Shown here: positions 52,619 through 58,356 of the stretch, piece after piece
Layout: each line of letters starts with the position of its first letter
Numbering within the stretch: position 1 is the first letter of the stretch
NCBI RefSeq assembly: GCF_000282655.1
Contig: NZ_AKIV01000046.1
Span: 62,001-126,000, forward strand
Origin: Polaromonas sp. CF318
GTDB lineage: Bacteria > Pseudomonadota > Gammaproteobacteria > Burkholderiales > Burkholderiaceae_C
Direction of reading: 5' to 3'
Length of the DNA: 64,000 bases
The notes under the pieces: generated by a model
Database searches by the model: none
What the model was told of the DNA's origin: nothing
What the model saw: the letters and a program-made list of their open reading frames with translations, nothing else
Position numbers and translations under genes: made by a program

Positions 52619-55156
52619 TCAGTCTTTCGCAACCACGGTGTCATACAGCCCATAGTGCCGCAGCCCCTCGTGACTCTCAATTCCGGTATAGCGCAGCGAT
52701 GCGTCTTCATACCGACGGAACGCAAACACAGCCTGGTTCATCTGCTCGGTGTTGAACACCTTAAGCCGCACCAGCAGGTGAAAGTCCTTCACCGTCAACC
52801 CGGTCACGGTCAGAAACAGGTCCGGTTCCAGCTTGGTGATCACGTCCTGCAGCGTGTTCTCTCGGAAGTCGGTCAGATACATGAAGGCGGGGATGCGGGT
52901 GGCGAACTTGATCAGCTTCTCTTGAACCAGTTTACGTTTGGACTTGTATTCCTTCTCTTCGTCGGTGAGTTCCTTTTTCTCCTTGCCCGTCAGCTTGCCT
53001 TCCTGGGCCTTGTTCTTGAGATTCTTGACCTTGTCACTCTTATTGATGATGGTTTCAATGATGTTTTCGCCCAGCGAACGCCAACCCTCGATGCGCTCCA
53101 CCGCAGCCATTGCGTCTGGGTTGTCCAGAATGCGACGCAACGTGCCGTTGTCTACGTTCACCAAAAGCGCACTTTCCCACTTTCGGGCCAGCAAAGTGGC
53201 CGAAGTTCCGGCCATCGCGATGTCCAGGATGCCGCCCGCATCGATCTGCGTCATGTTGGCGCCGTCGTAGGCCAGCACGGGCAGAAAGGCCACCAGGTCT
53301 CGCACCGCATGCTCGGGGTTGCTTTCGTTAGGCGACAAGCCGATGCCGTATTCGGACAACTGGCGTAGCGCCCGCGTGGGCGCGAAGTCAAACACAAAGC
53401 ACACCGGCTTCAGGATTTCTTCCTCGTTCGGATCGTCTCCGTTGGGGTTCTTGATGGACCAGGGCGATTGCACCCGAAACGCCGCCTGGAAGTAGGTCTC
53501 AGGCGACTTCAGGTTGCGAAGCATCAGGATGGACGACCATTGCGGCACGGTCACCCCTGTGGTGAGCTTGCCGCACGAAAGCGTGATGGTCTTGGTCCCG
53601 AACCCGCTGCTGATCGCCTGGCGCACCGGGGTCAGCGCGTCCAGCCCAATGCCGGCATTGGTACCTGCCGCCACGATCACTGTGTAGTCGCGCCAGAAGG
53701 TGTTGTGCTTCTCTCGCAGTAGGTTCGCCATCGCGTGGCAAGCCGCTACATTGGGCAGGAACCAGAATGAATGTTGCAGGTAAGGCAACAGGCGCACATC
53801 AGAATACGGAAACGGCGGACGCGACCCTACCTTTAGCAACTCGGCGGATTGGGCCGCGTAGCCGCCGCGAATAATGTCCAGCCATTTCTGCACGTCGCCC
53901 TTGTACTTGAACTGGGCCATCTTCTCCGGGCCCGATGCCTCGAAAAAAGCGTTGAGGTCAAACTCGTCGAACTCGCCCCCGCTGGCGATGGCCAGCAGTT
54001 CGTCGGGCATCTGGTAGGTCAGCAGCCGCATTTGCGGCAGCGCCGCGTAGGGGTTGCGCTGACCGGGGTGCCCGACAGAGAAGGCATCTTTTGCGCGCTG
54101 CTCGTCGGTGTAGGTCCAGTTGAAGATTTGCTCTTCGATGAACTCCCCCGTGGCCAGCGCCTTGAACGGCGTGCCAGAGAGGTACAGATACGCCCGGGTG
54201 GCGATGGGCAGAAAGTCTGCTTCTCGCTCCAGTGGCTCCTGCAGGTCGGCGATCCGCTCCTTCTGACCCTTGGTGTCGTCCACCCGTGTTTCTGAGCGCT
54301 CGATGCGCTCCTCGTCTCCCTCGAACAATTCCTTGGCGCTCTCACGCCAGGCTCCGAAGTGGTACTCGTCAAACACCACAAGGTCCCAGTGCACCGCGTG
54401 CAGCCATTCGTTCCGGGGTTTGATGTGGCCGGCGGCGTCGCGCCCCAGCAGGTCCTGGAACGATCCGAAATACACCACCGGCTTGCGCTTGTCGATCTGC
54501 GTCGGGTCGCTGCCCGACGCGCGCGACAGGTACTGCCAGCCATCGAAGTCCACATGGCTCTCCAGGTCGGTCTGCCACGCGTCTTCCACCGCCGGCTTGA
54601 ACGTCACTACCAGCACGCGCTTGGCCTTGAGCTTTTTGGCCAGCTGGTAAGCGGTGAAGGTCTTACCGAAGCGCATTTTGGCGTTCCACAGAAAGCGCGG
54701 GGTGGCGTGCATGTCTTCCTGCCAGATGGAGTGGAAGTAGGCATGCGTCTTGTTCACCGCCGTGGCCTGTTCGTCACGCAGACCGAAGGTTTCGTGGTGC
54801 GTGCCGCCAAAACGCTGCCCTGTGCGCAGCTCGGCCAGCACGGTGTGCACATCCGCCGCGGTGCAGCGCACCCACTCCAACATGGTGTTCGCAAAGCCGC
54901 GCTTTACTAGCGCCGCGCGCACCTCGTGGTCGGTGAATACCGAGCCGTCATTGCGCTCCGCCGGCTCGTCGATTTCAATTCGGTAGTTCCGGATTGCGGC
55001 GGTTTTGAGTTGCTCGGCCACGCGCCGCTTCACGTCGCGCGCGGTCTGCCCCACCTTTAACAGACCCCGGTGCGCGGAATCGGCGATGGTGTACGCGTAA
55101 ATGCGGGGTCTGGCATCCGGTTTGGGCGCCAGAATATCTTCGACAGACCTACTCAT
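52619..55156 (-). CDS. GIY-YIG nuclease/SF2 helicase fusion (restriction-type motor)
   Basis: 845 residues. Residues 17-110 look like a GIY-YIG/T5orf172-type nuclease: RIYAYTIAD, then GLLKVGQTARDVKRRV and a helix with Glu78 (FTDHEVRAAL). From 120 on comes an SF2 helicase: Walker A AKMRFGKT (159-166), DEYH box (263-266), LSGTPF (motif III), LTTGVTVPQWSSILMLRN (motif V) and FQAAFRVQSP (motif VI). A lysine/glutamate-rich coiled segment (NKSDKVKNLKNKAQEGKL and on) precedes the C-terminal domain. It overlaps the upstream methyltransferase gene by eight bases. Translocating restriction subunit is the likely role. Confidence 0.82.
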   Translation of the reverse strand: MSRSVEDILAPKPDARPRIYAYTIADSAHRGLLKVGQTARDVKRRVAEQLKTAAIRNYRIEIDEPAERNDGSVFTDHEVRAALVKRGFANTMLEWVRCTAADVHTVLAELRTGQRFGGTHHETFGLRDEQATAVNKTHAYFHSIWQEDMHATPRFLWNAKMRFGKTFTAYQLAKKLKAKRVLVVTFKPAVEDAWQTDLESHVDFDGWQYLSRASGSDPTQIDKRKPVVYFGSFQDLLGRDAAGHIKPRNEWLHAVHWDLVVFDEYHFGAWRESAKELFEGDEERIERSETRVDDTKGQKERIADLQEPLEREADFLPIATRAYLYLSGTPFKALATGEFIEEQIFNWTYTDEQRAKDAFSVGHPGQRNPYAALPQMRLLTYQMPDELLAIASGGEFDEFDLNAFFEASGPEKMAQFKYKGDVQKWLDIIRGGYAAQSAELLKVGSRPPFPYSDVRLLPYLQHSFWFLPNVAACHAMANLLREKHNTFWRDYTVIVAAGTNAGIGLDALTPVRQAISSGFGTKTITLSCGKLTTGVTVPQWSSILMLRNLKSPETYFQAAFRVQSPWSIKNPNGDDPNEEEILKPVCFVFDFAPTRALRQLSEYGIGLSPNESNPEHAVRDLVAFLPVLAYDGANMTQIDAGGILDIAMAGTSATLLARKWESALLVNVDNGTLRRILDNPDAMAAVERIEGWRSLGENIIETIINKSDKVKNLKNKAQEGKLTGKEKKELTDEEKEYKSKRKLVQEKLIKFATRIPAFMYLTDFRENTLQDVITKLEPDLFLTVTGLTVKDFHLLVRLKVFNTEQMNQAVFAFRRYEDASLRYTGIESHEGLRHYGLYDTVVAKD

Positions 55157-57439: not shown

Positions 57440-58356
57440 TGAAATAGACCTTGATGTTCCCGGCAATACTGCAAACCGCCAAAGCGTTTAACGTTGTTCC
57501 AACAGAATTTTCCCTCGGCGTAGCCGATCTTCGCACGGCAGTGGGCGCAGATGAGCTTTTTCGCCAAGGATTCGTCTTTAACAGGAGGCGGCTCGGCCTT
57601 GGGGTGCGCCACCGGCACAGGTGTGACGGGCTTGGGTTGCATGAAGGGTGGTAAATCCAGCAGGTCTGGCGGGCGGTGCTGGCGCTTGAGCTTTTCGCCC
57701 CATTCCTTGATGGTGTCGGGGCTGCGCAGATTGAACAGCGCCTTGAGCACGCTGCCCGTGCCAATGCCATCCACCAGTTTTTCATGCCACGAAGGGAACT
57801 GGTCTGCCTTGATAAGAAAGCTGGTATCAAAGGCCTTGGCGTCGGGCCGCTGGATGATGGCTTTCGGGTGCATCATGACCACGTTATGGAACTCGGGCAA
57901 CTTGTCGGTGCGGGTACTGATTTCCAGCCGCTCCAGCAACTTGCCCAGGATGCGGGCGTGGCGGCGGCTTTGCTCGTAGGGGGATGGAATGCCGTAGCGC
58001 TCCTTGCCATAACGCACGGTGAATTCGCCATGGGCGTTGACTTCCAGGTCGCCTGAGTAGTTTTTGGTTTCAATCAGCACCATGTAGCCGGTGCGGTTGA
58101 TGACCAGATGATCAATTTGGGCCACCTCACCATCGATCTGGAACCGCAGGTCGTGCAGCAGGACGTTGTTTTGGCCATCCTTGTAATGACCGTCGAGGTG
58201 GAAGGCGGCTTCTTGTTCGCCCCTGAGGCCGGCGGTCAGGTTGCGCAGTTCAACGCGCAGCCACTCTTTCTGACGGGCGTCCAGCAAGCTGGACTTTTGC
58301 AGGTCTTGCAGCAATGCCAGGCGTTTGCTTTTGTCGTCGGCTGATTTGATCAGCAT
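57436..58356 (-). CDS. NERD-domain nuclease-like protein with C-terminal zinc finger
   Basis: 306 residues. The N-terminal NERD domain (about 42-160) has GLRGEQEA, EVAQIDHLVINRTGYMVLIETKNYSG with Asp82, Glu96 and Lys98 in the PD-(D/E)xK arrangement, and SPYEQSRRHARIL. The middle is Pro/Lys-rich. The C-terminus is a zinc-binding segment (Cys270, Cys273, Cys285, Cys298, His301). First gene of the four-gene operon, with a strong GGGGGAG ribosome site. It may cut or bind DNA for the system; NERD proteins are poorly characterised. Confidence 0.82.
   Translation of the reverse strand: MLIKSADDKSKRLALLQDLQKSSLLDARQKEWLRVELRNLTAGLRGEQEAAFHLDGHYKDGQNNVLLHDLRFQIDGEVAQIDHLVINRTGYMVLIETKNYSGDLEVNAHGEFTVRYGKERYGIPSPYEQSRRHARILGKLLERLEISTRTDKLPEFHNVVMMHPKAIIQRPDAKAFDTSFLIKADQFPSWHEKLVDGIGTGSVLKALFNLRSPDTIKEWGEKLKRQHRPPDLLDLPPFMQPKPVTPVPVAHPKAEPPPVKDESLAKKLICAHCRAKIGYAEGKFCWNNVKRFGGLQYCREHQGLFQ

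Follow-up and report, generated by a model that had tools for sequence, protein, structure and literature searches.

The operon and its resemblance to DrdVI

The window analysed here (the whole stretch of 64,000 nucleotides from Polaromonas sp. CF318, contig NZ_AKIV01000046.1, positions 62,001 to 126,000) contains, at positions 52619–58356, an operon that an earlier note on this DNA had put forward as a candidate defence system. Four minus-strand open reading frames (ORFs), here named NERD, M1, M2 and R, overlap successively by 4, 4 and 8 bases, and ORF coordinates and sequence bear out this arrangement as the note had described it. Domain matches (Pfam NERD, E-value 1.5e-20; Eco57I, 1.2e-38; N6_Mtase, 6e-6, in part; ResIII, 5e-7) argue against chance ORFs. 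The operon is also, as claimed, more AT-rich than its flanks, with a G+C content of 0.55–0.63 against mostly 0.61–0.68 outside both edges.

The NERD nuclease-like gene (57436–58356, minus strand, like all the features of the operon given below) encodes 306 amino acids (aa), with a C-terminal stretch that by eye resembles a zinc ribbon. M1 (56798–57439) encodes a half-methyltransferase of 213 aa, the counterpart of M1.DrdVI, with motifs X, I, II and III and no NPPY; this length supposes an ATG start, favoured by alignment with relatives, where the ORF list gives an upstream TTG at 57466. Its motif I, EPACGSGNF (57287–57313), is an S-adenosylmethionine (AdoMet)-binding loop with the canonical GxG. 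M2 (55149–56801), the counterpart of M2.DrdVI, is an Eco57I-family methyltransferase of 550 aa with the catalytic motif NPPY (in NPPYQ; 56172–56183), a target-recognition region at about residues 301–517 (55251–55901; identities were measured on residues 301–480) and an altered motif I, DPCTKSGVF (56583–56609), in which Lys69 stands where other family members have Gly.

R (52619–55156; 845 aa), the counterpart of DrdVI, is a fusion of a GIY-YIG nuclease and a superfamily 2 (SF2) translocase/helicase. The motor occupies about residues 120–610 (53327–54799), with the Pfam ResIII match at 125–277 and the motifs AKMRFGKT, DEYH, SGTPF and QAAFRVQ, which are conserved in 139 R proteins. The N-terminal, T5orf172-like domain covers about residues 18–98 (54863–55105). 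The window R protein alone reaches no GIY-YIG model of Pfam at E 1; T5orf172, a GIY-YIG-type family, was matched at E up to 1 by six of ten R-family proteins, the strongest match being at 2.3e-9. Residues Y20, K34, G36, R45 and E94 are at least 98% conserved among the 139 aligned R proteins, and several records annotate relatives of R as 'GIY-YIG nuclease family'. The fusion proposed in the earlier note is therefore upheld, by these T5orf172 matches, by the ResIII match and by identity to the pDrdVI protein (see below). Three weak PDB matches to the R profile, to NAP1-related chains (E 0.01–0.04), were discarded.

The DrdVI system was reportedly described by New England Biolabs from the Deinococcus plasmid pDrdVI, and its name is rare, appearing in three papers of the open-access literature searched. 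This plasmid (Deinococcus wulumuqiensis NEB 479, locus L004; NZ_CP031164 / CP031164) was among the best plasmid matches to R (tblastn, 79 records), and three consecutive genes on it match M1, M2 and R in order, with identities over the alignment of 76% for R, 74% for M2 and 67% for M1 (69% by tblastn). M1-2.DrdVI is recorded with the motif GCAGCC and N6-methyladenine (6mA), is filed as 'IIG', and its methyltransferase genes were expressed in E. coli (PMC6430315, Table 1). The passages of PMC4996451 considered here present DrdVI as a fused translocase and restriction endonuclease, liken a GIY-YIG protein to it and name M1.DrdVI and M2.DrdVI. M1, M2 and R agree with pDrdVI in gene content, order, overlaps and sequence; these three genes thus make up a DrdVI-type system, and the window almost certainly holds this restriction-modification system, M1-M2-R, intact. 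The operon is a further member of an already known yet little-studied kind, expected to mark its own DNA and to cut foreign DNA. It shares with pDrdVI the three genes in the same order, 67–76% identity and, probably, the target-recognition class, and differs from it in the extra NERD gene upstream, in its location between argG and murB and in having a site that is a prediction. The view that no named type had this content thus gives way for M1, M2 and R, which DrdVI covers, and stands for NERD, which it does not. Nor does the proposal of modification-dependent restriction survive, since the homologous DrdVI genes make 6mA at GCAGCC (PMC6430315), which by homology points to a system that modifies and cuts. 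Neither PADLOC nor NCBIfam has a named system for the four genes together: apart from partial PglW/MAD6 matches of NERD, their matches are to general type I, II and IIG methyltransferase models (REase_MTase_IIG PDLC03626 of PADLOC was matched in part by both R and M2). PHROGs gave general helicase and methyltransferase families and, besides these, families of unknown function.

Distribution, target class and genomic setting

The DrdVI-type family is widespread. R was found in 13 of 399 genomes of the same order, the window genome counted (E 1e-100), and at least 558 relatives were confirmed with one genome per species. The best 80 of these are 70–83% identical to the window R and carry the labels of many phyla; they are mostly metagenome bins whose labels are possibly wrong, and named strains of Pseudomonadota and Actinomycetota are included. 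Plasmid records add Deinococcus and Corynebacterium, and in isolates of Deinococcus, Corynebacterium, Kocuria, Humibacter and Agreia, R is 68–76% identical to that of the window. Within the genus, M1 occurs in 6 of 87 genomes, the window included, which fits horizontal transfer. M1, M2 and R follow one another on one strand in 103 loci, again with the window; a few duplicates of the window region were left out of this count and near-identical records were included. In 60 of the 103, M1 and M2 overlap by exactly 4 bases, and in 58, M2 and R overlap by exactly 8, while 22 have a gap of at least 400 nucleotides (nt) at one or both junctions, among them L094, where M2 is broken and no gene is inserted. 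The recurrence of gene order that the earlier note proposed as a test is seen for M1-M2-R and not for NERD.

The M2 target-recognition regions fall into two groups when compared with that of the window over residues 301–480: among the 121 other M2 proteins (the set of 122 being those of 470–720 aa among 144 matches), 34 are at least 60% identical, 81 less than 40%, and six lie between. In contrast, over N-terminal residues 30–110 the median identity is 74% for the 31 proteins with coverage whose target region is at least 60% identical, and 72% for those with less than 40% there (of 80, 53 reach at least 65% and the others go down to 20%), with gaps counted differently in the two regions. M2.DrdVI, at 71%, falls in the first group, which makes GCAGCC or a near variant the likely target, although such similarity leaves room for a different exact site. 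As far as can be read from sequence, it is therefore probable that the C-terminal region of M2 reads GCAGCC or a close variant and that M1 and M2 would together methylate its single adenine. GCAGCC has one adenine and GGCTGC none, so the 6mA mark would lie on one strand only.

Some of the related operons contain inserted genes, between M1 and M2 or between M2 and R (L024, L028, L036, L037, L040, L047, L050, L052, L054, L057, L061, L073 and L166). By eye, some inserted frames resemble what we take to be DUF1016-, KilA-N- and RhuM-like proteins and pairs of ImmA/IrrE and PIN proteins. In L028, L037 and L054 the inserted frame bears, at or near its start, a stretch resembling the first dozen residues of R. 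In Corynebacterium crudilactis pCRULAC2 (L006), a Tn3-family transposase, a recombinase, an IS3-like element and two aminoglycoside phosphotransferase genes are placed between a gene annotated as Eco57I-family (M2-like) and R.

The operon sits between argG and murB, which are 7.9 kb apart in the window. In nine regions 3' of argG taken from relatives in the genus, with an in-frame murB query used for the distances, the ends of the two genes are separated by about 120 nt (L132), 100 nt (L133) and 150 nt (L135), by about 0.9–1.2 kb (L136, L138 and L139), or by 4.7 kb (L131) and 4.9 kb (L134) with other genes between, the stretch from L137 being without murB. Given these distances, the operon occupies a stretch absent from close relatives. 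A repeat of the argG 3' end, sought in the window as an integration scar, gave short weak matches alone beyond argG itself. L134 (genome G417) has a second, diverged argG 3' end and a piece of murB at about 4261–4886, between argG and the full murB, so insertions or duplications in the genus may occur at this junction. Of the terminators said to bound the region, terminator-like hairpins do exist at 51863–51894 (strong, on the argG strand) and at 58705–58718, but the hairpin count in the region is no higher than chance (9 against 7.7 +/- 2.6). Two genes of unknown function without a Pfam match above the cut-off flank the operon within the argG–murB interval. One, of 217 aa and of unknown family (51914–52567, minus strand), lies 3' of R outside the system and was carried, among the loci compared, by the window genome alone; the other (58881–59735) has relatives in 4 of 40 other genomes (E 1e-15).

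The putatively divided methyltransferase and its viral fusions

The two METHYLTRANSFERASE chains, M1 and M2, look like complementary halves of one enzyme when their aligned motifs are compared (motif numbers were presumptively assigned from knowledge of the family). All 113 M1 proteins (those of 180–350 aa among 116 matches) have E43, G47, G49 and F51 of motif I, and none has NPPY; position 89 (motif II) is always acidic, with Glu in 91 and Asp in 22, and at position 134 there is Asp in 101 proteins and Asn in the other 12. NPPY is present in each of the 122 M2 proteins, all of which have Lys for the motif I glycine and have lost the motif II acid, replaced by Gly (80), Ala (39), Ser (2) or Cys (1). 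The earlier note's split methyltransferase is borne out at the level of motifs, M1 having motif I and no NPPY, and M2 having NPPYQ. A control with PF07669 relatives of the same order yielded 23 loci, 20 of them with an NPPY-like frame; motif I could be resolved in 12 with a pattern that admitted Gly, Ala or Lys only (one further match to it was spurious and seven frames gave none), and was Lys in five DrdVI-type proteins, including that of the window, and Gly in the seven others.

The structure model of M2 (predicted local distance difference test, pLDDT, 86; predicted template modelling score, pTM, 0.84) matches CamA with Z about 22 and a root-mean-square deviation (rmsd) of about 5 over about 400 residues, with BrxX, LlaGI, LlaBIII, DrdV and M.BseCI as lower matches. 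This resemblance implies that the variable region of M2 corresponds to the DNA-reading part of CamA-type enzymes. The fold is shared with the CamA, M.BseCI, BrxX/PglX and LlaGI/LlaBIII structures at Z about 17–22 and about 11–17% identity; in these enzymes the AdoMet and catalytic motifs lie in one chain, and CamA, BrxX and the ISP enzymes methylate one strand. Profiles of M2 and of the fusions described below had no PDB sequence match at E 0.1.

Two viral contigs, L213 and L214, encode a single chain in which M1, to about residue 176 (L213) or 185 (L214), is joined directly to M2 from residue 199 onward (MQFDVIIGNPPYQ), so that the whole M2 N-domain is missing. In a third viral record, L212, M1 is followed one base later by an M2 that starts at the same methionine as the M2 part of the fusions. 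The M2 halves of these three are nearest to different M2 groups (83% to L043, 74% to L057 and 58% to L181), and that of L213 is 53% and 37% identical to the other two. The loss of the N-domain therefore happened more than once, probably three times, and the two M1–M2 fusions apparently arose independently, as judged from these identities. R is absent from all three records (L212, L213 and L214; checked with a positive control).

A scan of viral records with M2 catalytic halves gave 47 loci with at least 36% identity over at least 280 residues (lower rows were dropped), not all of them independent and some of them fragments. R was matched in 41 of the 42 loci with an M2 N-domain, in some cases cut by the contig end, and a full R in none of the five without it (the L212, L213 and L214 records, L345 and L359); L345 retains about 60 residues of R, in the manner of a remnant, and L359 is a 5.5-kb fragment without M1. 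The idea that absence of R always accompanies loss of the M2 N-domain was abandoned because the L216/L357 record breaks it. Further fusions were not obtained: a viral scan with a fusion query returned already known contigs only, and none was present in 398 genomes of the phylum (E 1e-60).

In other viral contigs, a short M1-like AdoMet half (about 140–310 aa, no NPPY) lies near an NPPY protein, as seen in the sequences of L392, L397, L400, L401, L402, L404, L408 and L412 and, from the table only, in L398, L399, L405–L407, L409 and L413; these may be a wider form of the split design. The NPPY protein has no recognisable GxG in L402 and L408, has an odd GHGTE-like motif in L392, L397 and L401, and looks complete in L400, and in L404 a GIY-YIG/helicase/NPPY fusion adjoins the M1-like half. 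Short M1-like frames without NPPY (about 130–241 aa) were also seen in viral records L236, L240, L241, L243–L251 and L253–L269, where a search restricted to the downstream side found no NPPY partner within 1.5 kb.

Interpretation and alternative explanations

The best explanation of the whole locus is very probably a DrdVI-type M1-M2-R system with the predicted site, the restriction mode set out below, assembly of the methyltransferase in trans and an accessory NERD gene. On trans assembly itself we are more tentative, giving it slightly less than even odds: in what is the simplest reading, the AdoMet-binding half of M1 may complete the NPPY half of M2, leaving the altered AdoMet-like domain of M2 to serve restriction. 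This is suggested by the M1 and M2 motif columns, the control, the phage fusions and the pairing of M2 N-domain loss with the lack of a full R, and neither such a two-chain AdoMet/NPPY split nor the phage fusions were found described in the open-access literature searched. It is also a real possibility, if a somewhat doubtful one, that M2 suffices as a methyltransferase on its own and that M1 is a pseudo-methyltransferase with a regulatory or structural role, an arrangement for which DndH, inactive and methyltransferase-like, is a precedent in the passages of PMC10853773 considered. M2 does model as a complete fold near CamA, but the glycine and acid that it lacks throughout its family are those that M1 always keeps, three phage contigs retain M1 and drop the M2 N-domain, and the published name M1-2.DrdVI spans both genes for one motif (PMC6430315).

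Several observations weigh against the explanation that we prefer, in one part or another. Having by itself a complete methyltransferase fold, M2 might bind AdoMet unaided, and its N-domain is well conserved and so does something. The L216/L357 viral record has M1 and a full M2 with no R in 16 kb, and the viral records are possibly fragmentary. In the model made for the L214 fusion (pLDDT 83, pTM 0.71), the halves are packed unlike CamA (rmsd 11–12 over both halves) and pLDDT at the junction is under 50, so that this model speaks neither for nor against packing of M1 on the M2 half. The target-recognition region differs from that of M2.DrdVI at 29% of positions, so that the site could differ, and both methylation and restriction by the window operon are predictions from its genes.

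The NERD gene is, in all likelihood, an accessory neighbour at the edge of the operon and not part of its core, because NERD was found beside none of the 97 other M1 loci searched and its relatives occur elsewhere. The search (tblastn with the window protein, E 1e-6, which could miss a very divergent NERD) covered those 97 of 115 loci that extend 1000 nt or more upstream of M1: 50 genome contigs, 30 viral loci, 10 further genomes and 7 plasmid or phage records. Relatives of NERD are present in 10 of 200 genomes of the order (nine besides that of the window) and in 27 plasmid records; the neighbourhoods of two of these records were read, and neither has a DrdVI-type operon near NERD in the stretch shown. 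The earlier note's restriction-modification operon with two nuclease modules accordingly keeps the GIY-YIG/SF2 enzyme and loses NERD as a core component. A four-gene defence system in which NERD works beside M1-M2-R as a second nuclease or back-up effector would account for its place in the same operon, with a 4-base overlap with M1, and the relevant parts of two sources describe NERD nucleases that stand alone at the borders of Dnd systems (PMC10853773) and, both there and inside BREX PglW, propose them as back-up effectors (PMC10853773, PMC12839542); against the 97 loci and the relatives elsewhere, we judge this quite improbable. That the operon is a decaying, inactive remnant is also unlikely: the related operon of Bibersteinia trehalosi is broken and inactive according to the passages considered (PMC4996451), but all the window frames are open and of full length, with conserved motifs and junctions. 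Least probable is a modification-dependent (type IV-like) system. Helicase-nuclease proteins do occur in type IV systems, but here the operon itself encodes an NPPY methyltransferase that includes a target-recognition region, and the homologous methyltransferase genes modify DNA (PMC6430315).

For the DrdVI-type reading, a restriction mode can be proposed by analogy, which we regard as somewhat probable: R would dock on the M1-M2 complex, translocate DNA by its SF2 motor and use its GIY-YIG domain to cleave unmodified DNA, probably not until it has met a second complex, in the manner of type III and ISP enzymes. The reason for a second complex would be that, when only one strand of a site can be methylated, replication yields one daughter duplex that bears no mark. 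Enzymes of types III and ISP handle the unmarked duplex by requiring two sites and translocation, and the SF2 motor in R makes a similar solution likely. Rather more speculatively, the catalytic half of M2 could pair with its own dead AdoMet domain when docked on R (the restriction state) and with M1 in the methylation state, so that domain exchange would switch a two-chain active site between cutting and marking. Phages needing the mark alone would then have repeatedly discarded the dead M2 domain, two of them fusing M1 onto the catalytic half.

The operon departs from the other known systems with which it was compared. Type ISP enzymes (LlaGI/LlaBIII) are single chains with an Mrr-like nuclease, helicase, methyltransferase and target-recognition domain, whereas the window has separate chains and a GIY-YIG-like nuclease. 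Type III systems combine a Mod methyltransferase with a Res helicase that has a C-terminal PD-(D/E)XK nuclease; in the window, the nuclease is N-terminal and GIY-YIG-like, and motif I precedes NPPY in M2. Unlike type I, the operon has no separate HsdS gene, its target-recognition region being the C-terminal part of M2. In BREX type 2/MADS, NERD lies within the large PglW/MAD6 kinase protein, whereas the window NERD has 306 aa and its matches to PglW/MAD6 cover the NERD part only (21–24 bits, against NCBIfam cut-offs of 460 and 990). Type IIG in the narrow sense is one polypeptide and the window has three, yet PMC6430315 still files DrdVI there. As far as the passages considered go, Btr188ORF1790/ORF1760 of Bibersteinia trehalosi, with a GIY-YIG protein, are possible pieces of a system most like DrdVI, but are fragmented where the window genes are intact (PMC4996451). 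On similarly partial accounts, the OspHL35III group is likewise type IIG-like, with a methyltransferase/specificity protein, a translocase and a GIY-YIG nuclease, but these are three separate proteins with an MmeI-like methyltransferase, whereas the window fuses translocase and nuclease and divides the methyltransferase between two chains (PMC4752239); PacII M1M2S also has two unlike subunits named M1 and M2, but is a type I enzyme whose alternative subunits make N6-methyladenine and N4-methylcytosine, whereas the window M1 is without the catalytic motif (PMC9613975). A fused lactobacillus plasmid form, from Pediococcus (L009), carries the equivalents of R and M2 as one protein of 1410 aa (35% identical to R in the GIY-YIG/translocase part and 26% to M2 in the NPPY part), with a separate M1-like protein upstream (profile comparison E 2e-7).

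With these results, a candidate defence system becomes a member of a kind that has a name, and GCAGCC or a site near it is its specific prediction. If true, the two-chain active site would offer a simple account of how marking and cutting could be kept apart in a system with a mark on one strand only, and the natural phage fusions suggest which of its parts suffice for marking.

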